Part shown: positions 8,870 to 19,109 of the stretch, one piece after another
Numbering within the stretch: position 1 is the first letter of the stretch
Layout of the letters: each line of letters opens with the position of its first letter
Source of the DNA: Marinicella meishanensis
GTDB lineage: Bacteria; Pseudomonadota; Gammaproteobacteria; Xanthomonadales; Marinicellaceae
Assembly (NCBI RefSeq): GCF_019931145.1
Contig: NZ_JAIOUV010000003.1
Location: 248,001-312,000, forward strand
Direction of reading: 5' to 3'
DNA length: 64,000 nt
The notes under the pieces: model-generated
The model's input: only the letters and a program-made list of their open reading frames with translations
What the model was told of the DNA's origin: nothing
Database searches by the model: none
Translations under genes and position numbers: made by a program

Positions 8870-9685
8870 TCATCGTTGTTTTTTGGCCGGAGTCCAACTG
8901 CTCGGATCCAAACGGTAATAATTTTGCAACAAAGCATATAAATTGGGGTGTTTGCGCTTGAAAGTGTGGGGTTGTTCAAAGAAATGTTCGGTGGTCACGG
9001 CAAAAAATTCCGCCGGATTGGTGGCGCCATAATGATCGAAAAACGAGCGGCGACGCATCTTGGCCTTGGCGATCAGGCTTTTGAATTCCTGGCTCATCAA
9101 TTGACCCCAGGTGTGCAACTGATTGCCTTCAATGATGGGGCGACCATCACCGGCGCCATCGGCTTGGTCCAGTTGGTGGGCAAACTCATGAATCACCACG
9201 TTGTGGCCGTCTTGCGCATTGCGGCCGCCGTGCTCGGCATCGGCCCAGGACAACACCACCGGACCCCGCACCCAGGACTCGCCCAAATGGTGGCCGGGTT
9301 TGTCATGGTTGGGGTTTTTAAAACCAGCGGGGTAAATGCGGATGGTGCGCAGGTGGGTGTAGTAATTACTGGGTCGGCCCAGCAACAACACACAGGCTTG
9401 GGCGGCAATGGTGACCCGCATTTCATCGGTCACTTCCAGATCGCCATGGCCGGTGAAATATTTTTCGGCCAAAAACACGTTCACATGGCCCAGTAAGTCA
9501 CGTTTAAGGTCATCCGGTAAATGGTGGTAGATCGCCACATTGCGTTCGATGTAGGCCACCCAGTGCTCCGGTGTGGCCAAATTGAACAGCATGCGGCGCC
9601 GCCGCTGTTTGCGCCAACGCAGCAAAGCAAGCAGGGCCAGCACCGCCACGACACTGGAAATGATGATTAAATAAGACTGATTCAT
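8870..9685 (-). CDS. mtfA: MtfA-type (M90) zinc-dependent peptidase
   Basis: 271 aa. One N-terminal membrane segment (YLIIISSVVAVLALLALL) followed by a basic stretch (RWRKQRRRR) places the rest in the cytoplasm. The catalytic motif VVIHEFAHQLDQADG (HExxH, near residue 163) and the downstream FAVTTEHFFEQP, which supplies the third zinc-ligand region, are typical of MtfA/DUF980 proteins. In E. coli MtfA is a peptidase that binds the glucose regulator Mlc; that link cannot be assumed here. It is divergent from the GNAT gene across only 42 bases, so the two may share control sequences. Confidence 0.9.
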   Translation of the reverse strand: MNQSYLIIISSVVAVLALLALLRWRKQRRRRMLFNLATPEHWVAYIERNVAIYHHLPDDLKRDLLGHVNVFLAEKYFTGHGDLEVTDEMRVTIAAQACVLLLGRPSNYYTHLRTIRIYPAGFKNPNHDKPGHHLGESWVRGPVVLSWADAEHGGRNAQDGHNVVIHEFAHQLDQADGAGDGRPIIEGNQLHTWGQLMSQEFKSLIAKAKMRRRSFFDHYGATNPAEFFAVTTEHFFEQPHTFKRKHPNLYALLQNYYRLDPSSWTPAKKQR

Positions 9686-9727: not shown

Positions 9728-10279
9728 ATGAAGGAAGCCAAAACCACACCCATGTCCCAATCATTTCGACTCCGGTCTTTGCGACCTGATGACGGCCCTG
9801 CCATCAGTCAGTGGTACCAGGATCCGAACATCATGAAACACATCGGCCCGGTGCTTGAATCACCGGTCGCTGAAGGTTTGGTTGAGCGGATGTTGCGGGA
9901 TGTGGCCAACGGCAAAGCCAGATATCAGGTCATTGAGACCACCGCAAGTGCTGAATTGGTTGGCATGGTCAGTATGTTGTGGCAGCCATCAGAACAAGCG
10001 GTGGTGGCTGGCATGATCGTGCTGCCTGCGTTTCAAAACCAAGGGGTGTGTAAATGGGCGCAAATGACTGCCATGCAACAAATCACGAACACATTCCCAG
10101 CTCGGATCTGCACCGTGTACATCGATACGGACAACGGTCCGGCTTCCACCAGCTACCGGCACATGGGATTCGTGTCAGTTAAAAACACCTCAACCCACCC
10201 AGTCAACCAAAAATTGGTGCGGTGGGATTTCCCATTGACAGAAAATCATCAAACATCACAGGAGAATTCATCCGCATGA
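9728..10279 (+). CDS. GNAT-family N-acetyltransferase, first gene of the borosin-like cluster
   Basis: 183 aa (ATG at 9752, MSQSFRLRSLRPDDG, is an alternative start). It shows the GNAT plan: beta-1 FRLRSLRPDDG, then AGMIVLPAFQNQGVC as the acetyl-CoA binding motif A (Q-x-x-G-V) and a C-terminal strand YRHMGFVSVKN. Its stop overlaps the start of the methyltransferase as ATGA, so the two are translationally coupled. That coupling argues it belongs to the peptide cluster, perhaps acetylating the peptide, a precursor or a self-protection target. The substrate is unknown. A second GNAT lies in the duplicated half of the cluster. Confidence 0.85.
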   Translation: MKEAKTTPMSQSFRLRSLRPDDGPAISQWYQDPNIMKHIGPVLESPVAEGLVERMLRDVANGKARYQVIETTASAELVGMVSMLWQPSEQAVVAGMIVLPAFQNQGVCKWAQMTAMQQITNTFPARICTVYIDTDNGPASTSYRHMGFVSVKNTSTHPVNQKLVRWDFPLTENHQTSQENSSA

Positions 10280-11055
10280 AAGGCAGTTTGGTCAACGTTG
10301 GCCTGGGCATGACCCTGGGCTCCCACATCACCCCATTATCCAGAAACTTTATTGAACAAGCCGACGTGGTGTTTGTGGCTGCTTCGAATCAACTGGTCGA
10401 AGAATGGGTCAAAACCATGAATGACCACGTGATCAGCTTACAACCGCTTTATGCCGAGGGTAAATCGCGCAAACAAACTTATCAGGAAATGAACGAAGCG
10501 ATCATGACTGAGGTGCGGGCTGGGAAAAAAGTCTGTGGCGCTTTTTATGGCCATCCAGGGGTGTTCGCTTTGACCCCACACCAAACCATACAAATGGCGC
10601 GCGAGGAAGGTTTCAAGGCCCACATGGAACCAGGCATCTCAGCTGAGGATTGTTTGTATGCTGATTTGGGAATCGACCCAGGCACCTATGGCATGGCCCA
10701 TTTTGAAGCCAATAATTTCATGTTCAATCAGACGGTTTATGACCCCTCGGCCTATTTGGTGTTGTGGCAAATTGCCTTGGCTGGCGACCGCACATTGAAA
10801 GTCTTTGAGACCACCGCTGATGCCAAACAACTGTTGGTCGACATGTTGCTGGAACATTACCCGGCTGACCATGAAGTCATCATTTATGAATGCGCGGTGT
10901 TGCCGATTGAACAGCCATTAATCAAACCGCTGTCGCTGCAAAAATTGGCCCATGCCGAAGTGTCGTTGAAAAGTACCTTGGTGATCCCACCGGCAGTCAA
11001 GAAACAGAAAGATCATGAAAAAATAAATAGGTTGTTGCATCTTGAACATTCGTGA
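10276..11055 (+). CDS. Borosin-type SAM-dependent peptide alpha-N-methyltransferase (SonM-like)
   Basis: 259 aa from MKGSLVNVGLGMTLG, chosen because AGGAG lies just upstream and the family begins here; a start at 10222 would add 18 unrelated residues. It has the tetrapyrrole-methylase fold but the signatures of split borosin methyltransferases such as Shewanella SonM: GKSRKQTYQEM (R65 and Y69 at the positions of catalytic Arg/Tyr), FYGHPGVFA, MEPGISAEDCLYADLGIDPG, FEANNFMF and LVLWQIALAGDRTL. Borosin enzymes methylate backbone amides of a RiPP precursor. No cobalamin genes are nearby. The stop codon overlaps the promoter of precursor A. Family confidence is high from recalled similarity; activity is untested. 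Confidence 0.87.
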   Translation: MKGSLVNVGLGMTLGSHITPLSRNFIEQADVVFVAASNQLVEEWVKTMNDHVISLQPLYAEGKSRKQTYQEMNEAIMTEVRAGKKVCGAFYGHPGVFALTPHQTIQMAREEGFKAHMEPGISAEDCLYADLGIDPGTYGMAHFEANNFMFNQTVYDPSAYLVLWQIALAGDRTLKVFETTADAKQLLVDMLLEHYPADHEVIIYECAVLPIEQPLIKPLSLQKLAHAEVSLKSTLVIPPAVKKQKDHEKINRLLHLEHS

Positions 11056-11061
11056 TATGAT
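11032..11061 (+). promoter_or_regulatory. Predicted promoter of precursor A (extended -10)
   Basis: TGATATGAT (11053-11061) is an exact extended -10, with TTGTTG (11032-11037) 18 bases before the TATGAT hexamer. It overlaps the stop codon of the methyltransferase. The same TGATAYGAT element precedes precursor B at 13729-13737. Confidence 0.55.
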
Positions 11062-11094
11062 TTTTTTGTCCTGTGTGGGACCAATTTCAATACT

Positions 11095-11111
11095 TCAATC
11101 TAAAAAGAGGA
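11095..11111 (+). promoter_or_regulatory. Conserved 17-nt leader box with ribosome binding site, copy A
   Basis: TCAATCTAAAAAGAGGA is identical to 13778-13794 in front of precursor B. It contains the AGAGG ribosome binding site 7 bases before the ATG and fixes the start of the small gene. The identity extends beyond what an SD alone needs. Confidence 0.8.
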
Positions 11112-11117
11112 TTACCA

Positions 11118-11297
11118 ATGAAATTCAATGTAAAAATGCTGGAAAAAATGGGCCAAACACAATCCATCCATCAATTTGATTCTGTTGAACAAATGTATGA
11201 CCAATTCAATGTATCAGATCAGGCATTCACCAAGTTAAAAGCACAATCCAATGACTTGACATGTGTGTTATTCCCAGATGACGACGATGAGGAGTGA
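11118..11297 (+). CDS. Precursor-like peptide A, 59 aa (candidate borosin substrate)
   Basis: The ATG at 11118 follows AAGAGG; an in-frame upstream start at 11073 has no ribosome binding site. The first ~40 residues (LEKMGQTQSIHQFDSVEQM then VSDQAFTKLKAQS) look like a small helical leader or recognition domain, comparable in size and position to the borosin-binding domain of SonA. The C-terminal part NDLTCVLFPDDDDEE is a candidate core: a short hydrophobic stretch with one Cys, then Pro and an acidic tail. It aligns without gaps to precursor B (same length, 18 identities by my count). It sits between the methyltransferase and the TPR-GGDEF gene. Precursor role is inferred from neighbour, size and duplication. 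Confidence 0.78.
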   Translation: MKFNVKMLEKMGQTQSIHQFDSVEQMYDQFNVSDQAFTKLKAQSNDLTCVLFPDDDDEE

Positions 11298-11316
11298 TAC
11301 TTAAGCCGTTTTCTTG

Positions 11317-13119
11317 ATGTTCAAACCAGTTTTCAAAATTCACAGAGCATGTCCATTGATCATGCTCTTTTTGTGTGTGTTTCCATTGTTAATTATCGCC
11401 CAGGAAAATAAATTACAGCCACTGGGGGAACCGCAATACATCACAGATGAGCTGTTGCGTCTTGAGTCTTTGCGATTGAATGACCCAAAAGCTTTTAGTG
11501 AAGGTCTGGAAGCTCTGGGTTTTGATCAAATTAAGATGTCATCGTATCAACAGTGTCATTACACTTTTCTCAAATCTTATCAAAAAGCATTCAAAGGAGA
11601 ATCTCTCGAAGCCATTGAACTGATGGAAAATCTGATTCCGAATTGTGAAGATTTGCGGGTGAGGATTCGGGTCAATGCGCTCATTGCCAACATTGCTGTG
11701 ATTGGTGGTGATTACATCAAAGCGTCCAATAACATTGATTTGGTCATCCAAAATGCAGAACAGACATCAGATGTGACATCTAAATTGTTGGCTTATTCTG
11801 TTGCTGCCATTGTCTATAACTTGCTGGATCAGAGAGAGTTGGGTGTTAAGTACAGTCAGTTACTATACAACTTAGAGCCTTCTGAGAAGAACTTGTGTCA
11901 TTTGCACTACAGCAGCAATGTTCATCATTTAGATAAAGACAATCCACCCATAGATTTCTCCAAAATCAGCAGCATGTCTGAACAATGTCGTGCCAGCGGT
12001 AACCTCCTCTACAGTCAGTTCATCGTGTTAGACAACATCAAATGGAAATTAACTCAAGAACAAATTGATCCCGCCACCATGGATGAAATCAGGCAGACAT
12101 TGGAAGCCTTGAATGATGAAATTTCAAGCAGTCCATACCAAAACATTCTGGGTATTTTTGCGGCAGTTAAAGCCAAATACCATTGGCTGAATGGTGAGAC
12201 TGAATCGGCCGAACAAAGGGCCCTGAAATCCATTCAACTCAATCAAAATCTAGGCATCACAGAACAACTGATCATGGCCTTGGAAGTGTTGGAAAATGTG
12301 GCCAAGTCGAAAGGGGACTATGTCAGTTCCTATGATTATTTGAATCAAAAAAATGAGGCTGAGTTGAAAATGTATGACCAGTCTCAGGCCAAACAAATGG
12401 CTTTTATGACGGTCAAGCACTCCAATTTGGCCAAGGTGTTTGAGATCGAGCAGTTGAACCGACAAAAAGAAGTGTTGGAACTGGAAAAACAATTGGCCAA
12501 ACAAGAAGCCAATAACCAACGCCTGGTGATTTTGTTGATTTTGACTTTGGTGGGATTCATGGCCATGTGGTTGGTGCGAATCAAGAAAAAACACGATTAT
12601 TTCAAAGGTGTGTCAGAGATTGATCATTTGACCAAGGTGCTGACCCGCAAAGCCTTTGAAGAACAAGTCTCGGAACTCCTGGTGAAATGTCAGGAACAGG
12701 AAAAGCCGATGAATTTGGCCATTGTCGACTTGGATCATTTTAAAAATGTCAATGACACCCACGGCCATTTGATTGGTGATTGGGTGCTGAAGAATGTGGT
12801 GTACGCGATCAAAGAATTGGTCGAAGAGAACATGATCATCGCCCGCTTGGGTGGCGAAGAGTTTTGTGTGGTGATACCGATGGTCGATTGTGAGGCCATG
12901 GCAGCGAAATTGGAGACCATGCGCCGGGCCATTGAAACCTTGGACTGCAGTGAATCAGGGGTGGAGCTGTCGGTCACTGCCAGTTTTGGCTACACCTCTT
13001 CAGTGACTTCAGGTTACTCTTTACCGATGTTGCTGACCCATGCCGATGTGGCCTTGTTTGAAGCGAAAAAACAAGGGCGCAACCAAGTGGTTAAATTCAA
13101 CAACATTCATCGCAAGTAG
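11317..13119 (+). CDS. Membrane diguanylate cyclase with predicted periplasmic TPR-like sensor region, copy 1
   Basis: 600 aa from the ATG giving MFKPVFKIHRACPL; a TTG one codon earlier is less likely. Layout: signal peptide (to about residue 29), a long alpha-helical TPR-like region (about 30-380), a coiled stretch (QLNRQKEVLELEKQLAKQEANN), one membrane helix (about 405-422, LVILLILTLVGFMAMWLV), then a cytoplasmic GGDEF domain. The domain has DLDHFKNVND for metal binding and GGEEF near residue 512. It lacks the RxxD inhibitory site (EENM at that place), so product inhibition through that site is not expected. It probably makes cyclic di-GMP in response to a periplasmic signal. Base composition of the first half is AT-richer than the housekeeping genes. 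Confidence 0.88.
   Translation: MFKPVFKIHRACPLIMLFLCVFPLLIIAQENKLQPLGEPQYITDELLRLESLRLNDPKAFSEGLEALGFDQIKMSSYQQCHYTFLKSYQKAFKGESLEAIELMENLIPNCEDLRVRIRVNALIANIAVIGGDYIKASNNIDLVIQNAEQTSDVTSKLLAYSVAAIVYNLLDQRELGVKYSQLLYNLEPSEKNLCHLHYSSNVHHLDKDNPPIDFSKISSMSEQCRASGNLLYSQFIVLDNIKWKLTQEQIDPATMDEIRQTLEALNDEISSSPYQNILGIFAAVKAKYHWLNGETESAEQRALKSIQLNQNLGITEQLIMALEVLENVAKSKGDYVSSYDYLNQKNEAELKMYDQSQAKQMAFMTVKHSNLAKVFEIEQLNRQKEVLELEKQLAKQEANNQRLVILLILTLVGFMAMWLVRIKKKHDYFKGVSEIDHLTKVLTRKAFEEQVSELLVKCQEQEKPMNLAIVDLDHFKNVNDTHGHLIGDWVLKNVVYAIKELVEENMIIARLGGEEFCVVIPMVDCEAMAAKLETMRRAIETLDCSESGVELSVTASFGYTSSVTSGYSLPMLLTHADVALFEAKKQGRNQVVKFNNIHRK
11344..11372 (+). terminator. Terminator-like hairpin at the start of the first TPR-GGDEF gene
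   Basis: Stem AGAGCATG/CATGCTCT with a 9-base loop, followed by TTTTT. It lies 47 bases after the stop of precursor A and inside the signal-peptide codons of the next gene. It may attenuate transcription so that precursor RNA exceeds regulator RNA. A similar element follows precursor B. Confidence 0.5.
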
Positions 13120-13135
13120 ACACAACGATTCCCCA

Positions 13136-13663
13136 TTGCTCATCCCGCATTTCATTCCATGTGCTGACCATCAACTGGTGTTGTTGGCACCCCATCACTT
13201 TACGGCATATTGGCACATCTACAGCAATGAGTCTTTGATGCAACACATCAAAAAGCCTTTGACCAAACAATCAGCTAAGCGGCTGTTTAACTTCACACTG
13301 TCTGAATTGACCAGTCCACAACCAACAAAATTGACTTACATGATTGAGAATTCCTGTCATGAAGTCTTGGGTTTGGTGGGGCTGACGTTGCCAGAGAAGC
13401 CCAATGGTTCTGCCGAGATTGGGGTCATGATTCTGCCGCAATGGCAACGGCAAAAGGTGGCTCATCAGGCCAAGCAAAGCTTAATTGCCACCGCATTTGA
13501 GCGCATGGATCTAAGACACATTTATGCCCACTGTGAAGTGACAAACATCGCAGCAAACCGAGCGAATCAAAAACTTGGATTTGATTTGGATGACTCATTT
13601 CATGATCCAAAGAAAGGCACAGAAATCAAAGTCTGGAAAATTTCAAGACCGGATTCAAAATGA
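13136..13663 (+). CDS. GNAT-like acetyltransferase, second copy, degenerate CoA loop
   Basis: About 175 aa. There is no ATG after the preceding gene ends; TTG at 13136 gives a normal GNAT start (MLIPHFIPCADHQLVLLAPHHF), while the ATG at 13040 would overlap the GGDEF gene by 80 bases. The fold is recognisable: beta-1 HQLVLLAPHH, then AEIGVMILPQWQRQKVAHQA, and the C-terminal NRANQKLGFDLDD. Motif A carries QRQKVA where GNATs have Q-x-x-G-x-G/A, so the loop glycine is replaced by Lys and CoA binding may be altered or lost. It occupies the place that GNAT plus methyltransferase hold before precursor A. Confidence 0.72.
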   Translation: MLIPHFIPCADHQLVLLAPHHFTAYWHIYSNESLMQHIKKPLTKQSAKRLFNFTLSELTSPQPTKLTYMIENSCHEVLGLVGLTLPEKPNGSAEIGVMILPQWQRQKVAHQAKQSLIATAFERMDLRHIYAHCEVTNIAANRANQKLGFDLDDSFHDPKKGTEIKVWKISRPDSK

Positions 13664-13728
13664 AATTGGACGTAAAAGAACAATGAAATCTGCCGCAAGA
13701 TATCACTGTGGTGTGACCCAAATTTTCA

Positions 13729-13737
13729 TGATACGAT
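13729..13737 (+). promoter_or_regulatory. Predicted extended -10 of precursor B
   Basis: TGATACGAT, one base different from the TGATATGAT in front of precursor A and placed at a similar distance (40 versus 33 bases) from the conserved leader box. No convincing -35 was found. Confidence 0.5.
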
Positions 13738-13777
13738 GTCTTTGCTTGAATGCGTTCAGGCACAAACCTAAAGTCAA

Positions 13778-13794
13778 TCAATCTAAAAAGAGGA
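13778..13794 (+). promoter_or_regulatory. Conserved 17-nt leader box with ribosome binding site, copy B
   Basis: TCAATCTAAAAAGAGGA, identical to 11095-11111. The AGAGG ends 8 bases before the ATG of precursor B. Confidence 0.8.
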
Positions 13795-13801
13795 ATAACT
13801 T

Positions 13802-13981
13802 ATGAAGCAAATGATCAAACAATTAGAATCACTGGGTGCCAATTCATCCATCAAACAATACAACAGTTTAGATGACATGTTGTCAGATCGCATGATGGAC
13901 CAAGCTGAAGTTGATGCCATGTTCACCAAATCATCAGAGCTGATTTGTATCCATGATCCAGGTGATGACGACGACGATTGA
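13802..13981 (+). CDS. Precursor-like peptide B, 59 aa (candidate borosin substrate)
   Basis: Exactly the same length as precursor A. The leader half is similar (QLESLGANSSIKQYNSLDDM against MLEKMGQTQSIHQFDSVEQM), the middle has diverged, and the tail SELICIHDPGDDDDD keeps L47, C49, P53 and D55-D57 of peptide A. The candidate core therefore differs in its hydrophobic residues (LICIHDP versus LTCVLFP) while the acidic end is retained. No methyltransferase lies directly upstream, so modification would rely on the single enzyme about 2.7 kb away. It is followed by a strong terminator, then the second TPR-GGDEF gene. Function is inferred, not shown. Confidence 0.76.
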   Translation: MKQMIKQLESLGANSSIKQYNSLDDMLSDRMMDQAEVDAMFTKSSELICIHDPGDDDDD

Positions 13982-14002
13982 TTGCTCAATCCAATGACTA
14001 AT

Positions 14003-14042
14003 ACCATTGGGTACAGACTGTGCCCGGTGGTCTTTTTTTTTT
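14003..14042 (+). terminator. Strong terminator or attenuator after precursor B
   Basis: A 13-bp stem ACCATTGGGTACA/TGTGCCCGGTGGT with three G-U pairs and a 3-base loop, followed by C and ten T residues. It separates precursor B from the second TPR-GGDEF gene, which begins 30 bases later. Confidence 0.88.
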
Positions 14043-14071
14043 ATGATACTGAAATTGCGATTGCATTATTC

Positions 14072-15850
14072 ATGATTTTTTTACGAGCCAGTTGGTTGAC
14101 CGTATTGTTGGGCGTGGTGGTGATTGTTCATGCCACCGAGACTGATCGTTCATTCATGGATGCGTTGAATGGCGTTGAAAAAATCAGAAAAACCAAGCCA
14201 GATTTGTTCAAACAGCAATTGGATGAATTAAGTCCAATGCAATCACAGTTCAGCGTGGAAGAACGTTGCTACTATGATTTTTTGCGGTTTTACGCAGAGG
14301 GTTATGAGGGTAATTATGAGTCTACCATCAAAAATGTAAATGCCCTCAATGAACGCTGCCCAAGTCCAGCCAACCAGCTGCGTATAAAAAAATTTCTGGC
14401 CAACATTCAGATGATCACTGGGGACTTCAAAGACGCCATTCAAAACCTCAATGATGCCATTGAATTAACCGAATCGGTGGATGATGCGTATTTGGTCTCA
14501 CAAGTGCTCAATGTGGCTTCCATATCATATCGCTTGATGCATCAGGACAGTTTGAGCATCAAATATGCCGATTTATTGATCAATGCCAACTATTCTCGGG
14601 AGGACGTGTGTCTGGGACAATTCAACAAATACCGGGTGTTGATGCGCCAAGGGCAAGCGCGGCAGCATGAAAATGAAATCGAACAAGCCACCGCCAATTG
14701 TCAAAACAGCCAAAACATCATTGCGGCGCTGTTTTTACAGCTTGATTGGTATCGATACACCATTGATAAAAGCAGCACAGCCGATACAGAAATCGCTGCA
14801 GCCCTGGATCACTTGTTAAGCTTGGAGTCCCAAGTGGCAGATACTGGGTTCAAGAACATTCATGTTTATTACCAAGCATTGTTGTCGCGTTTGTATTTCA
14901 TGGCAGGACAAAGCGACATGGCCAATGTCAGCGCCAAGAAAGCCATTGAAGAAAACAACGTGATCGGAGAAACCGAACAATTGTTGATGGCCATGGAAGT
15001 GCTGGTATCAATTCACCTGGAACGGGGACAATACCAACAAGCTTACAGGTACTTGAAAGAAAAAAGTGTCGTTGAAAATGAGATTTACCAACGAAAATTG
15101 GCCACCCAAGTGGCTTATTACCGTGTCTTGCACGAAAACCTGGCACAGGAACTGGAAATTGAGCAGTTGAATCAAAACAATGAACTGTTGCGACTGGAAA
15201 ATCAATTGGCTGCTGAAACCGCCAAACGGCAGCAGCTGATGATGCTGTTGATTGCCAGTTTGTTGCTGTTGTTGGGCGTATGGGCCTTCAAAATCAAAAA
15301 GCGCCATGATTATTTCAAAGAAGTGGCCGAAATCGACCATTTGACCCAGGTGTTCACCCGCAAAGCCTTCGAGGAGAAAGTGCGGGTCATGCTGGAAGAG
15401 GCGGCCGAAACCAATTCTCCGGTTAATTTGGCGATCATGGATTTGGATCATTTCAAAAACGTCAATGACCAGTACGGTCATCTGGTGGGTGACTGGGTGT
15501 TGAAGCAAGTGGTGTTGACCTGTGAAGAAGTGGCCGATGAGGACATCCTGGTGGCCCGTTTGGGTGGTGAGGAGTTTTGTTTGGTTTCACCCAGCATCAG
15601 TCAGCTGCAAATGATGCGTTTGATGGAGAAAATGCGAGCGGCCATCGAAGCCATGGACAGCAGCGACTCAGGGGCCATTTTTGACATCACCGCCAGTTTT
15701 GGGGTGACCACCACGGCCTTGTCAGGTTACCGCGTATCGATGTTGTTGACCCATGCCGATCTGGCCTTGTTTGAGGCCAAAAACAAAGGCCGCAATGAAG
15801 TGGTGGCCTACGATGAGATCATGCAGGACGTGATGGCCGTCAAGGCGTGA
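14072..15850 (+). CDS. Membrane diguanylate cyclase with predicted periplasmic TPR-like sensor region, copy 2
   Basis: 592 aa from MIFLRASWLTVLLGVVVIVHA, a clear signal peptide; an earlier in-frame ATG would start at the terminator. It parallels copy 1 throughout: a helical TPR-like region (about 25-370), the coiled segment EIEQLNQNNELLRLENQLA, one membrane helix (about 388-404), and a GGDEF domain with DLDHFKNVND and GGEEF near residue 498. The inhibitory RxxD site is absent (ADED). The sensor halves have diverged more than the GGDEF halves, which would fit different ligands for the two copies. The final 11 bases overlap the convergent ovoB gene. Confidence 0.88.
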   Translation: MIFLRASWLTVLLGVVVIVHATETDRSFMDALNGVEKIRKTKPDLFKQQLDELSPMQSQFSVEERCYYDFLRFYAEGYEGNYESTIKNVNALNERCPSPANQLRIKKFLANIQMITGDFKDAIQNLNDAIELTESVDDAYLVSQVLNVASISYRLMHQDSLSIKYADLLINANYSREDVCLGQFNKYRVLMRQGQARQHENEIEQATANCQNSQNIIAALFLQLDWYRYTIDKSSTADTEIAAALDHLLSLESQVADTGFKNIHVYYQALLSRLYFMAGQSDMANVSAKKAIEENNVIGETEQLLMAMEVLVSIHLERGQYQQAYRYLKEKSVVENEIYQRKLATQVAYYRVLHENLAQELEIEQLNQNNELLRLENQLAAETAKRQQLMMLLIASLLLLLGVWAFKIKKRHDYFKEVAEIDHLTQVFTRKAFEEKVRVMLEEAAETNSPVNLAIMDLDHFKNVNDQYGHLVGDWVLKQVVLTCEEVADEDILVARLGGEEFCLVSPSISQLQMMRLMEKMRAAIEAMDSSDSGAIFDITASFGVTTTALSGYRVSMLLTHADLALFEAKNKGRNEVVAYDEIMQDVMAVKA

Positions 15851-16949: not shown

Positions 16950-19109
16950 TCAGGGGCGTTTATGCCAAATGGTCAGTTGGGCGATGGTGTGCTGGTGCTT
17001 GCGGGCGGTTTCCCGAATCACAAACGGCACGTCTTGTGGCAGCGCCACCAGGTCAAACTGGGTGCCCAACACCTCTTTGAGGGCATCCAAGGTGGTGACA
17101 TTCTCGCCATTGACTTTGATGCCACCGAGCCAGTTCTGCTTCTCGGTGAATTCCTCCAGCCAGGTGTAGGGCGAAGTCAGCACCAGATAACCGCCGGGTT
17201 TGATGCGCTCTTGGATGCTCAACAAAAACTGTTTGGGCTGGTACAGGCGATCAATCAGATTGCCGGCAAAGATCAAATCGTAGTCGCTGTACTTGTCTTT
17301 CAGGTTGCAAGCATCGCCTTGCGAGAATTCAATTCGGTTGACCCGCTCGCCCAAGGCCAAATCGTCCAAACTGAACGATTTGATGGCAGTCAACTCGCCT
17401 TCGGTGGGGATCATGTATTTGACTTCACCGTGCGCCACCAAGTTGATGGCATTGCGGATGAAGCGGGTGGAAAAATCCACCCCATCGACATGGTCATAAT
17501 GGCGTGCCAATTCAAAGGAACTGCGCCCCACGGCACAACCCAGGTCCAAGGCCCGCGCATGGTGGGACAAATCAACGTGGGGTAACAAGGCGTCAATACA
17601 GGCTTTGGGAAAATTGGGCACCCCGAAATACTCGGCCCCGTAGTGGAACTCCAGGTATTGGGCGATCAGCTCGTCCGTTTCATAGGTGTTGAAGGTTTGA
17701 TTCACTTGGGTCTCCGATTCAATGTATCTGAATCCTGCGTGTTGAAAAAAGTGGCGGCGAAAAGCATAGCGGGAAGCCAGGTGAGCCTCATTACCGGTGC
17801 TGATCCAGCTGCCGCCTTTGATTAAGTTGTGTTGCCCATCAAAGGTGGGCACGGAAAAGTCGTCGTAGGCGGGGTGCACCGCAAAGCCTTCAAAACCATC
17901 GATGGCGGTTTCGGTCCATTGCCAGACGTTGCCGATGACATCGCCAAACTGTTCGGCGCCAAACAAAAACCGGTCCACCGGCATGGCCGAAGCGGCATGG
18001 GCCATGTCGATGTTGCCAGGCGCCGCCGTCCAATGCGGATAATGGGCCTGGTCGGCCATGGTGTGGTCATACAACCGATACCACTCAGCCTCGGTGGGCA
18101 GGCGGATGGGTTTGCCGGTGCGCGCGGCCAACCAATTGCAATAGGCTTTGGCTTCCAAGTAATTGACATCAACCGGCCAACTCCAAGGCATGCTGACTTC
18201 ATTGGTCATGTTGCGGTACAGCCAAGTGCCGTCTTGTTGACGCCAAAAGGTGGGGTGCTCGGCTTGGCGGAAACAGCGCCATTGCCAGCCTTCCTCGGTC
18301 CACCATTGTTGGTCTTTGTAACCACCGTCTTCAACAAAGGCCAAATATTGCGCATTGGACACCAGATACTGCGCGGCTTTGAACGACGCCACATCGGTGC
18401 GCAACTGGCCATATTCATTGTCCCAGCCGTAGGTGTCTGAGGGCCGGCTGCGGCCTTGTTCCACCGTGCCACCTGGTACGGGAAGCAAGCGGTTGTCGAC
18501 CACCGCATGATCCGTCTCGTGGGCAGGCCAGTGGTCACTGGGTGCCACAAACTCCAGGTCCAATTGGCGGATCAACACCGAAGAGGTTTCCAAATGGATG
18601 CGTTCATGCTCAATGCCCATAAGGATGATCCAAAACGGGTCCTGCCAGTTGATCGGCAAGTTCAACGGCAGGCTGTTTATCAAGTCCAACACCATGGCTT
18701 TGACCTGATCGCGGTAGCGATAAACGTCAGCCACCGGCGGCCAGTCATAATTGGCCGAATTGACATCATCCCAGGACATTTCATCGACGCCGATGGCCAT
18801 CATCGACTCGATTTGTTCGTCGATGTTGTGTTCGATCAACTTGGAAACCCGCAGTTTATTGACATAAAACACCGCCGTGTGCGCCAAATAAAAGATCAGC
18901 GGATGGCGCAGCGGTTCGGGTTGTTCATAATAAGCCTGGTCATTTTTCAGGCATTCAAACAGCTTTTCATAGGTGTCCCAAGTGCTGTTGAAGTGGTGCT
19001 TGATTTCGGCCCGCTTGTGATCGACATCACCATGTAACAACATCGGTGTTTTGCTGATTTCGAGCGGAATGGTCAAGTTCTGCGTGGGGTGGTTGTGTGG
19101 TTTTTTCAT
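16950..19109 (-). CDS. ovoA: OvoA: 5-histidylcysteine sulfoxide synthase with C-terminal N-methyltransferase
   Basis: 719 aa, the length and three-part plan of OvoA. N-terminal DinB-like domain with iron ligands in LAHTAVFY (H77) and GIEHERIHLE (H168 and H172). Middle formylglycine-generating-like domain (about 205-470; GGTVEQGRSRPSDTYGWDNE, RLPTEAEWYRL, GNVWQWTE, KGGSWISTGNE). C-terminal Rossmann methyltransferase (about 500-719; ALDLGCAVGRSSFELA). OvoA uses iron and oxygen to join Cys to His C5, and the methyltransferase domain methylates 5-thiohistidine to ovothiol A, a redox-active thiol. Together with ovoB the pathway is complete here. Confidence 0.95.
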   Translation of the reverse strand: MKKPHNHPTQNLTIPLEISKTPMLLHGDVDHKRAEIKHHFNSTWDTYEKLFECLKNDQAYYEQPEPLRHPLIFYLAHTAVFYVNKLRVSKLIEHNIDEQIESMMAIGVDEMSWDDVNSANYDWPPVADVYRYRDQVKAMVLDLINSLPLNLPINWQDPFWIILMGIEHERIHLETSSVLIRQLDLEFVAPSDHWPAHETDHAVVDNRLLPVPGGTVEQGRSRPSDTYGWDNEYGQLRTDVASFKAAQYLVSNAQYLAFVEDGGYKDQQWWTEEGWQWRCFRQAEHPTFWRQQDGTWLYRNMTNEVSMPWSWPVDVNYLEAKAYCNWLAARTGKPIRLPTEAEWYRLYDHTMADQAHYPHWTAAPGNIDMAHAASAMPVDRFLFGAEQFGDVIGNVWQWTETAIDGFEGFAVHPAYDDFSVPTFDGQHNLIKGGSWISTGNEAHLASRYAFRRHFFQHAGFRYIESETQVNQTFNTYETDELIAQYLEFHYGAEYFGVPNFPKACIDALLPHVDLSHHARALDLGCAVGRSSFELARHYDHVDGVDFSTRFIRNAINLVAHGEVKYMIPTEGELTAIKSFSLDDLALGERVNRIEFSQGDACNLKDKYSDYDLIFAGNLIDRLYQPKQFLLSIQERIKPGGYLVLTSPYTWLEEFTEKQNWLGGIKVNGENVTTLDALKEVLGTQFDLVALPQDVPFVIRETARKHQHTIAQLTIWHKRP

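Follow-up and report, generated by a model that had tools for sequence, protein, structure and literature searches.

Gene order and regulatory signals at the locus

The window analysed here, a stretch of 64,000 nucleotides from Marinicella meishanensis, contains seven ORFs, all on the + strand, which were read in the order GNAT1, methyltransferase (MT), peptide A, TPR-GGDEF1, GNAT2, peptide B and TPR-GGDEF2. This is the gene order given in an earlier note on this DNA and all seven ORFs were found as it described them. There is one MT in the genome yet two peptide-cyclase pairs. The genes and the signals around them are as follows.

9728..10279, + strand: GNAT acetyltransferase 1 (Pfam Acetyltransf_3, E 2e-11), overlapping the start of the MT by 4 nt
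10276..11055, + strand: predicted split-borosin alpha-N-methyltransferase (MT) of the SonM family, 259 aa (phmmer; Pfam TP_methylase, 4.2e-22)
11049..11065, + strand: promoter-like box TTCGTGATATGATTTTT 5' of peptide A, suggestive only (alignment of 12 upstream regions)
11118..11297, + strand: candidate precursor peptide A, 59 aa, C-terminus DLTCVLFPDDDDEE (family alignment A1; connected with SonA-type precursors by profiles of intermediate sequences)
11314..13119, + strand: predicted TPR-GGDEF diguanylate cyclase 1, 601-aa ORF (Pfam GGDEF, 3.4e-37)
11344..11372, + strand: terminator-like hairpin and T-run after peptide A, within the start of the cyclase 1 ORF (same stem in loci L045 and L046)
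13040..13663, + strand: GNAT acetyltransferase 2, ORF with uncertain start (Pfam Acetyltransf_3, E 1.3e-18 for 13124-13660)
13725..13738, + strand: promoter-like box TTCATGATACGATG 5' of peptide B, suggestive only (upstream-region alignment)
13802..13981, + strand: candidate precursor peptide B, 59 aa, C-terminus ELICIHDPGDDDDD (family alignment A1; profile match in own genome)
13982..15850, + strand: predicted TPR-GGDEF diguanylate cyclase 2, 622-aa ORF (Pfam GGDEF, 2.6e-36), start uncertain, perhaps the ATG at 14072, past the hairpin
14003..14041, + strand: terminator-like hairpin between peptide B and cyclase 2, 13 pairs and a T-tract (scan and fold energy)

The alignment of the 12 upstream regions, drawn from 6 loci's worth of genomes, gave the box consensus TCATGATATGATTTTT; the box of peptide A was not among the sites listed by the promoter scan. 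The hairpin 3' of peptide B is the stronger (-20.5 kcal/mol for the fold of 13980-14045, z -3.63). That 3' of peptide A is weak by energy (z -1.02), was not listed by the sequence scan and is possibly an attenuator. When 27 of the 28 family peptides were surveyed (one was skipped for having too little downstream sequence) using 20 mononucleotide shuffles per sequence, 13 post-peptide hairpin matches were obtained, all from the 19 peptides that belong to the genus of the window and none from the family's other 8. Having a promoter-like box upstream and a terminator-like hairpin downstream of its gene, each precursor would be made in excess over its cyclase.

The methyltransferase and its candidate precursors

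The MT scored 254 bits (E 1.3e-74) against SonM (7LTC) in phmmer and 149-160 bits against OphMA-type enzymes. The scores against YabN (56 bits), CobM (26 bits) and CobA/CysG (23 bits) were all far under the cut-offs of those models, and a tetrapyrrole-biosynthesis MT was ruled out by this set of scores. Residues Y59, R65, Y69, Y91, F97, E144, W164 and Q165 of the MT are invariant among the 17 sequences of alignment A4 and align with SonM Y58, R67, Y71, Y93, F99, E146, W166 and Q167 (the SonM positions were numbered by hand from the alignment). The catalytic Tyr-Arg-Tyr and the SAM/lock residues are present in this alignment; the top-clamp residue E173 of SonM is replaced by Asp. The proposal of a borosin-type enzyme was thus upheld when checked against the cobalamin and siroheme enzymes: judged by profile and sequence scores and active-site residues, the MT is a SonM-family split-borosin (type IV-like) enzyme.

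The two small ORFs are more than chance because Leu8 and Cys49 are invariant across the 28 sequences of alignment A1, a ribosome-binding-site-like AGAGGA motif precedes both ORFs (read from the sequence) and the family profile is specific genome-wide. Run against the whole of its own genome, this profile found peptides A and B at E 8.5e-26 and 7.3e-23, and the next match, at E 0.34, was unconvincing. A direct profile comparison of this short family with SonA-type precursors was weak (probability 8.7), and the short-family profile alone found no match in the PDB. Intermediate precursors bridge the two families with profile-comparison probabilities of 96.0 and 96.7, and in a non-circular test the intermediates alone matched SonA at E 3e-4. 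The match of the A2 profile to SonA was set aside as circular since A2 contains SonA-type rows. About 11 alignment columns of the SonA-type leader have no counterpart in the short family. The predicted peptide structure has three helices (mean pLDDT 70), the SonA-type reference being the five-helix borosin binding domain (BBD), and Foldseek with the peptide model gave no match. By way of the intermediates, the peptides proposed as split-borosin precursors are indeed SonA-like, and the window precursors are, on these profile comparisons, shortened SonA relatives with what is probably a reduced leader (BBD).

The weak direct comparison, the missing leader columns and the lack of a PDB match for the short family on its own would agree with the small ORFs encoding small proteins that regulate the cyclase, while the MT acts elsewhere. 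The SiaC-SiaD complex, met only as the title of a Foldseek match, provides a comparison of this kind. The intermediates that bridge both families tell against such a role and it is considered improbable. Peptides A and B are instead predicted, with high probability, to be substrates of the MT, which would act in the cytosol and, in both precursors, N-methylate the hydrophobic stretch that surrounds the invariant Cys. The architecture is almost certainly that of a split-borosin cassette.

The cyclases and their linkage to the methyltransferase

Cyclase 1 has an N-terminal hydrophobic segment, a TPR sensor containing C195 and C225 that is predicted to be periplasmic, a TM segment and a GGEEF domain. 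Pfam TPRs were found in cyclase 2 only, all under the Pfam cut-offs. Cyclase 1, in which Pfam found no TPR, is modelled by AlphaFold as an array of helical repeats (mean pLDDT 89.5). Among the solved TPR proteins matched by the sensor profile are LGN/GPSM2 (E 1.4e-7) and, as weak matches, Rap phosphatases (E 0.013 and 0.047). LGN/GPSM2 and Rap phosphatases bind peptides. Foldseek of the model matched the GGDEF domains of DgcB, SiaD, DgcR and WspR; the 50 matches listed were headed by GGDEF structures and included nothing on the sensor. D472, D474, N480, D481 and the GGEEF motif are invariant in alignment A6, and GG[DE]EF is kept in 142 of 143 distinct cyclases. The window cyclases are, on the presence of a GGDEF fold with its metal/GTP residues, predicted diguanylate cyclases. 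An RxxD I-site was not found on reading either window cyclase and is present in 73 of 142 relatives. Among 142 cyclases scored for topology, 136 have the N-terminal hydrophobic segment, all 142 a second hydrophobic segment before the GGDEF domain and 137 more positive charge after this second segment; hydrophobicity and charge thus predict a periplasmic TPR sensor. The two sensor cysteines are present in 143/143 members, including L150, L154 and L158 where no peptide was detected, and this ruled them out as a peptide-specific mark.

The earlier note had paired each peptide with a TPR-GGDEF protein, and the gene-neighbourhood check bore this out. In 40 Shewanella genomes a TPR-GGDEF gene lies within 1.1 kb downstream of 49/49 MTs, a count that omits the 23 weakest sensor matches (E 2.8e-12 to 9.9e-7), which were partial or lay in other proteins. 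A same-strand TPR-GGDEF gene lies within 2.5 kb of 38/41 MTs in relatives (set A), two of the three exceptions being near a contig or locus edge. The same holds for 64/66 MTs of set B, with one of the two exceptions near an edge; set B comprises MTs in named genomes distinct from set A and is biased to near relatives because, out of 560 candidate loci, the best 80 were used. Across set A and set B (best 80 of 560 candidate loci) respectively, precursor-like ORFs lie within 2.6 kb of 37/41 and 63/66 MTs and within 450 bp upstream of 41/47 and 72/77 cyclases, and GNAT-family ORFs within 1.2 kb of 28/41 and 30/66 MTs. The GNATs are an accessory part of the cassette. Sensor and MT also co-occur across the genomes of 61 relatives, the TPR sensor being found in 38/38 with the MT and 3/23 without (Fisher p 2.8e-13, the genomes not being independent). 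In Shewanella, at E 1e-15, the sensor was found in 34/34 genomes with the MT and 0/6 without (p 2.6e-7). Many of the relatives' genomes are drafts and absences, especially in G009 and G015, may be gaps. Genome G011 has a cyclase (L151) and no MT, nor any peptide that scores above the profile threshold; a possibly decayed peptide, under that threshold, was seen upstream by eye. In a sample of the class, scored with at most seven candidates per genome, this sensor was absent from four of five MT-bearing genomes, and no sensor or GGDEF profile match was present in the sequence surrounding these four MTs (7.7-15.5 kb each). A pairing unique to the window is ruled out by its recurrence in relatives and Shewanella; as far as gene neighbourhoods can tell, this shows that the pairing of peptide and MT with a cyclase is a rule of this MT branch and not a local oddity.

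The further claim of one cyclase per peptide stands in the window, where each peptide precedes its own cyclase, but strict one-to-one pairing is ruled out elsewhere by 11 of 124 cyclases that have no detected upstream peptide (sets A and B) and by 13 of 66 set B MTs that have two or three precursor-like ORFs and one cyclase nearby (set B in both counts representing the 80 best of 560 candidates). These multiple precursors per cyclase are what might be seen if the cyclase controlled the peptide, its TPR array sensing a periplasmic cue and c-di-GMP or the cyclase as a scaffold switching the synthesis or methylation of a conventional RiPP. Two loci, L041 and L171, encode a TPR-GGDEF-MT fusion in one protein with a SonA-like peptide just upstream, and in such a fusion the sensor would be able to control the MT. 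However, in the Marinicella group duplicated peptides each bring their own cyclase despite a single MT in the genome, and peptide-cyclase pairs exist with no adjoining MT, most clearly in G004 (4 kb upstream viewed) and G052 (MT about 87 kb away) and also in G014, G009 and G059 (at a contig end). Control of the peptide by the cyclase is thus regarded as rather unlikely.

Co-variation, direction of control and known systems

Co-variation was examined in 33 pairs, from 37 cyclases of hand-chosen family loci after four without a peptide were dropped; no pair came from L051, L059 or L061. The real pairing ranks first among 1536 within-genome re-pairings. The peptide correlates with the sensor at r 0.69 and with the catalytic domain at r 0.58 (partial r 0.47 versus 0.14). 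A peptide-GGDEF r of 0.37 was discarded, as it counted the truncated L047, which has no GGDEF part, as fully distant; without L047 the value is 0.58. The signal is carried by the leader (r 0.67), and core-specific co-variation with the sensor was not found in the 33-pair set (core-sensor r 0.40 versus core-GGDEF r 0.41). The correlations support peptide and cyclase behaving as a single inheritance unit. Co-inheritance of adjacent genes alone could produce much of the tree agreement, as it would if the two were mere neighbours in an old operon held by chance or transfer with no functional coupling. The linkage described above extends over distant genera, and the pairs at separate sites and the fusions also argue against this, so mere neighbourhood is very improbable. 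The best reading is a split-borosin cassette devoted to cyclic-di-GMP signalling, in which methylated peptide and partner cyclase are highly likely to act in one pathway.

Within such a pathway, the peptide controlling the cyclase is given about an even chance, the side of the membrane being left unfixed, and is favoured over the reverse. The methylated peptide would most likely set how active its own cyclase is, acting either on the inner, GGDEF/MT side of the membrane or, once exported, on the TPR array in the periplasm. The latter, in which an exported methylated peptide is read in a manner resembling quorum sensing or self-recognition, is a sub-case that agrees with the predicted topology, with the matches of the sensor to LGN/GPSM2 and Rap phosphatases and with the joint diversification of peptide and sensor. 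Against access of the peptide to a periplasmic sensor, no exporter, peptidase or protease widely conserved beside the cassette was seen in 82 hand-chosen loci (35 genus groups, ORFs of at least 90 aa) and no export signal is visible by eye in alignment A1. This absence of any sign of the peptide reaching the periplasm would also suit the cyclase controlling the peptide. Given also that co-variation is not core-specific and the sensor Cys pair not peptide-specific, reading of an exported peptide is unlikely, and the earlier claim that the cyclases sense the mature peptide is not supported. A broader reading of the preferred direction, that SonM-type split borosins across gammaproteobacteria are primarily peptide-signalling systems rather than natural-product pathways, with N-methylated peptides as dedicated TPR-GGDEF ligands, the Marinicella pairs being parallel insulated channels on one MT, is offered tentatively and at less than even chance.

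The window cyclases share with other membrane diguanylate cyclases that have a periplasmic sensor the hydrophobic N-terminus, sensor, TM segment and GG(D/E)EF domain, but this TPR sensor sub-family is found mainly in borosin-MT genomes. The gene for a small peptide next to that of a TPR receptor and a weak profile match to Rap recall RRNPP/Rap quorum sensing. In RRNPP systems the receptor is cytosolic and the peptide has an export signal, whereas the window sensor is predicted to be periplasmic and the window peptides have no export signal visible by eye; the cassette does not fit an RRNPP-type system with cytosolic TPR receptor and exported peptide. The closest known system is the type IV split borosin SonM/SonA of Shewanella oneidensis (PMC8429565), with which the window shares the MT family, most active-site residues and a separate small precursor with an N-terminal helical leader and C-terminal core. 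In the Shewanella relatives (L165, L166 and the sampled MTs) a TPR-GGDEF gene follows as in the window. The window differs in that its precursors are 59 aa long, have a shortened leader and carry an invariant Cys and a tail rich in Asp and Glu; it also has GNATs and, for its one MT, two precursor-cyclase pairs. The main text of PMC8429565 mentions a small conserved gene cluster and does not contain the words 'diguanylate' or 'acetyltransferase'. As published there in 2021, split borosins came without any final product; a near-constant partner expected to make a second messenger provides a handle on what they are for. Should the peptides indeed act on their cyclases, N-methylation of the peptide backbone would serve as a modification in signalling, and c-di-GMP cyclases would acquire a class of ligands that is encoded by genes. 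The earlier statement that no described borosin locus is paired with cyclic-di-GMP regulators was too strong. The legend to Figure 1 of PMC11395268 (2024) defines GGDEF as one of the domains depicted in the scheme of borosin types 0-XI, so that, as far as this legend goes, at least one published borosin architecture includes a GGDEF-containing domain, as the window does, and the link between borosins and GGDEF is not wholly new. Our guess is that the L041 and L171 fusions are the form so labelled.

Cassette, methyltransferase and precursors

The cassette coordinates of the earlier note were correct. The cassette and two nearby genes in the window are as follows.

9728-15850, +: cassette, in the order GNAT1, borosin-type methyltransferase (MT, 259 aa), peptide A, TPR-GGDEF cyclase 1, GNAT2, peptide B, TPR-GGDEF cyclase 2
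8870-9685, -: MtfA-like protein (PRK15410 model, below cut-off), adjoining the cassette and divergent from GNAT1
16950-19109, -: OvoA, 5-histidylcysteine sulfoxide synthase with a C-terminal methyltransferase (ovothiol biosynthesis), exceeding both NCBIfam cut-offs

Neither GNAT2 nor the two cyclases have a certain start codon; the ATG at 14072 is an attractive start for cyclase 2, as it lies downstream of the hairpin and opens a hydrophobic stretch. The Marinicella sediminis F2 contig is among the same-genus relatives of the genome studied here (G000).

The proposal that the MT is borosin-type was upheld by the scores and a cobalamin or siroheme assignment was not borne out. Using phmmer, SonM (7LTC), the split-borosin enzyme of Shewanella oneidensis, matched the window MT at E 1.3e-74 and fungal borosin enzymes of OphMA type did so at E 6e-46 to 2e-42, as against 56 bits (cut-off 525) for YabN, the top tetrapyrrole-type NCBIfam model, and 26 and 23 bits for the CobM and CobA/CysG models. 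Tyr59, Arg65, Tyr69, Tyr91, Phe97, Glu144, Trp164 and Gln165 were invariant in 17 MT sequences (the window and 16 others) and align, in the phmmer alignment with hand-counted numbering, with SonM Y58, R67, Y71, Y93, F99, E146, W166 and Q167, positions that PMC8429565 discusses. SonM E173 is Asp in the window MT.

The consensus of 28 members of the short precursor family is MxxxIKxLExIGQxxSLKQ...SxELVCxxxPxDDD, in which Leu8 and Cys49 never vary, and one alignment column holds Cys in 33/33 cyclase-paired peptides. Direct profile comparison of this family with SonA-type precursors was weak (probability 8.7), and its profile alone did not find SonA in a PDB search. Homology was established through A3, an alignment of nine longer precursors drawn from the order's other families, some of these precursors lacking the Cys: the short family matched A3 with probability 96.0, A3 matched SonA-type precursors with 96.7, and a PDB search with the A3 profile alone found SonA at E 3e-4. 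The window peptides are best seen as putative precursors whose borosin binding domain is shortened. An AlphaFold model of the precursor has three helices (mean pLDDT 70) and gave zero Foldseek matches.

Association of methyltransferase and cyclase

Of 61 relatives' genomes, 38 had the MT and 41 the sensor (threshold E 1e-15), these being all 38 MT genomes plus G009, G011 and G015 (Fisher p 2.8e-13, the genomes not being independent). A same-strand TPR-GGDEF gene lay within 2.5 kb of 38/41 MTs in these relatives, two of the remaining three being near an edge, and of 64/66 MTs in a further set built from the best 80 of 560 candidate loci in named genomes (Dyella, Rhodanobacter, Lysobacter, Rheinheimera, Alteromonas, Alkalimonas, Shewanella and others), where one of the remaining two was near an edge. 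The true exceptions, L042 and L130, are both second MT loci; the genome of L042 (G040) has a cyclase-linked MT at L040 and that of L130 (Dyella sp. EPa41) has one at L139. At L042 an unlike GGDEF protein of 918 aa lies ~1.8 kb upstream. In a sample of 40 Shewanella genomes, MT and sensor (E 1e-15) occurred in the identical 34, with the sensor 320-1055 bp downstream of 49/49 MTs. The pairing with TPR-GGDEF recurs well beyond the window. In S. atlantica and Shewanella sp. TC10 the MT, a SonA-like peptide and TPR-GGDEF are consecutive. Two Shewanella loci have the following layout.

L165 5492-8659, -: consecutive genes for a SonM-like MT, a SonA-like peptide and TPR-GGDEF
L166 5603-8411, -: the same arrangement

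The link is near-constant within this MT branch and fades with greater phylogenetic distance. In a class-wide sample of 274 genomes, five had the MT and only G000 had the sensor; the surroundings of the remaining four MTs (stretches of 7.7-15.5 kb) gave no sensor or GGDEF profile match. These SonM-profile MTs (L161-L164) have no TPR-GGDEF nearby, and L164 has a SonA-like match within an overlapping ORF (E 3e-4).

Neighbouring ORFs of at least 90 aa were surveyed at 82 loci, chosen by hand and spanning 35 genus groups. Just three families occurred in many groups: the cyclase (34 groups, 77 loci), the MT with the GNATs, merged by clustering (30 groups, 69 loci), and the precursors (11 groups at this ORF size). 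No other family exceeded 7 groups and 11 loci; one of these (7 groups, 9 loci) looks by eye like an ABC-transporter ATPase. The GNATs are an optional part of the cassette, being near 28/41 MTs in the relatives, 30/66 in the named genomes and at 0/2 SonM-type Shewanella loci.

Peptide and cyclase as the inherited unit

The AlphaFold model of cyclase 1 (mean pLDDT 89.5) comprises an N-terminal helix, a helical-repeat array, a long helix that includes a hydrophobic segment, and a GGDEF domain resembling DgcB, SiaD and WspR in Foldseek. The sensor profile found TPR proteins including LGN/GPSM2, and Rap weakly. The GG[DE]EF motif is kept in 142/143 distinct family members. A hydrophobicity script found an N-terminal hydrophobic segment in 136 of these 142 and a second one before GGDEF in all 142, with charge more positive after the second segment than before it in 137/142; the TPR sensor is therefore probably periplasmic. 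The sensor cysteines C195 and C225 are present in 143/143 cyclases, including diverged members with no detected peptide, and this universality suggests a structural disulfide. One diverged branch (L150, L154, L158) keeps both Cys with no peptide detected upstream, and L154 is without the GG[DE]EF motif. On reading the sequences, neither window cyclase has an RxxD I-site, which is present in 73/142 relatives. G000 has 36 GGDEF matches, two within the cassette.

The unit of inheritance is the peptide plus the cyclase, and in the window this module is duplicated around one MT. No more than 450 bp upstream, 41/47 cyclases in the relatives and 72/77 in the named genomes have a precursor-like ORF; for the other 6 and 5 no peptide was detected, though some precursors may be missed ORFs. 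Pairs not beside an MT occur in G052 (MT ~87 kb away), G004 (upstream sequence of 4 kb covered), G014 and G009 (upstream sequence of 0.7-1.5 kb covered) and G059 (contig end), and an MT fragment lies beside a pair in G016 and G030. G005 has a single peptide for three tandem cyclases. In G011, which has a cyclase, profile searches gave no MT match and no recognisable peptide. Relevant loci are as follows.

L155 3573-7770, + (G016): short ORF like an MT C-terminus (E 1e-4), next to two TPR-GGDEF genes and a peptide; possibly the remains of an MT copy whose peptide-cyclase pair was retained
L151 5240-5455, - (G011): small ORF upstream of the cyclase, with the look of a decayed precursor by eye, no profile match
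L041 7788-10367, +: TPR, GGDEF and borosin MT in a single protein of 859 aa, MT C-terminal by match positions, SonA-like peptide just upstream
L171 4449-6983, + (Luteimonas mephitis): TPR, GGDEF and MT in a single protein of 844 aa, SonA-like peptide just upstream

For 33 pairs in 23 genomes, nine of which have more than one pair, the true pairing ranked 1/1536 among within-genome re-pairings. Peptide distance correlated somewhat more closely with sensor distance (r 0.69) than with catalytic-domain distance (r 0.58); the difference was above zero in 99.1% of bootstraps and the partial correlations were 0.47 versus 0.14. Co-variation with the sensor sits in the leader (0.67), the core giving 0.40 with the sensor and 0.41 with GGDEF. 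These data support co-inheritance of peptide and cyclase as modules and are no demonstration that the sensor reads the core.

Direction of control and relation to known borosins

The single MT would methylate peptides A and B, and each peptide would work with its partner cyclase within one pathway. We favour control of the cyclase by the peptide because the duplicated peptides of the Marinicella group each keep their own cyclase while the MT is common to them. A serious rival is that the cyclase controls peptide synthesis. The L041 and L171 fusions, evidence that cyclase and MT belong together, speak for it, as do loci with several peptides per cyclase: 13/66 named-genome MTs have two to three precursor-like ORFs per single nearby cyclase. 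Rhodanobacter L100 and L120 have five and four such ORFs, respectively, per one MT and two cyclases.

The precursor may be produced in excess. RiPP precursors are commonly made in excess, and terminator-like hairpins, found behind 13/27 peptides against 0.8 expected from mononucleotide shuffles, fit a precursor made in excess over the cyclase. All 13 belong to the window's genus, which supplied 19 of the peptides, against 0/8 in the rest of the family; in the window the hairpin following peptide B (14003-14041) is strong (z -3.63) and that following peptide A (11344-11372) weak (z -1.02). Most of a set of 12 aligned peptides are preceded by a TCATGATATGATTTTT-like box, which was absent from the sites of a promoter scan that gave 5 sites versus 9.6 expected.

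Split borosins are already known (PMC8429565), and the legend of a borosin-type figure in PMC11395268 (2024) defines GGDEF as a domain. In the open literature searched, borosin together with diguanylate or c-di-GMP gave no match, and borosin together with GGDEF occurred in one paper. Apparently new in the window are the shortened, Cys-bearing acidic precursors and the duplicated peptide-cyclase channels around one MT. More widely, SonM-type borosins in these gammaproteobacteria are accompanied by a TPR-GGDEF cyclase, a rule that, as far as we have seen, is little described.
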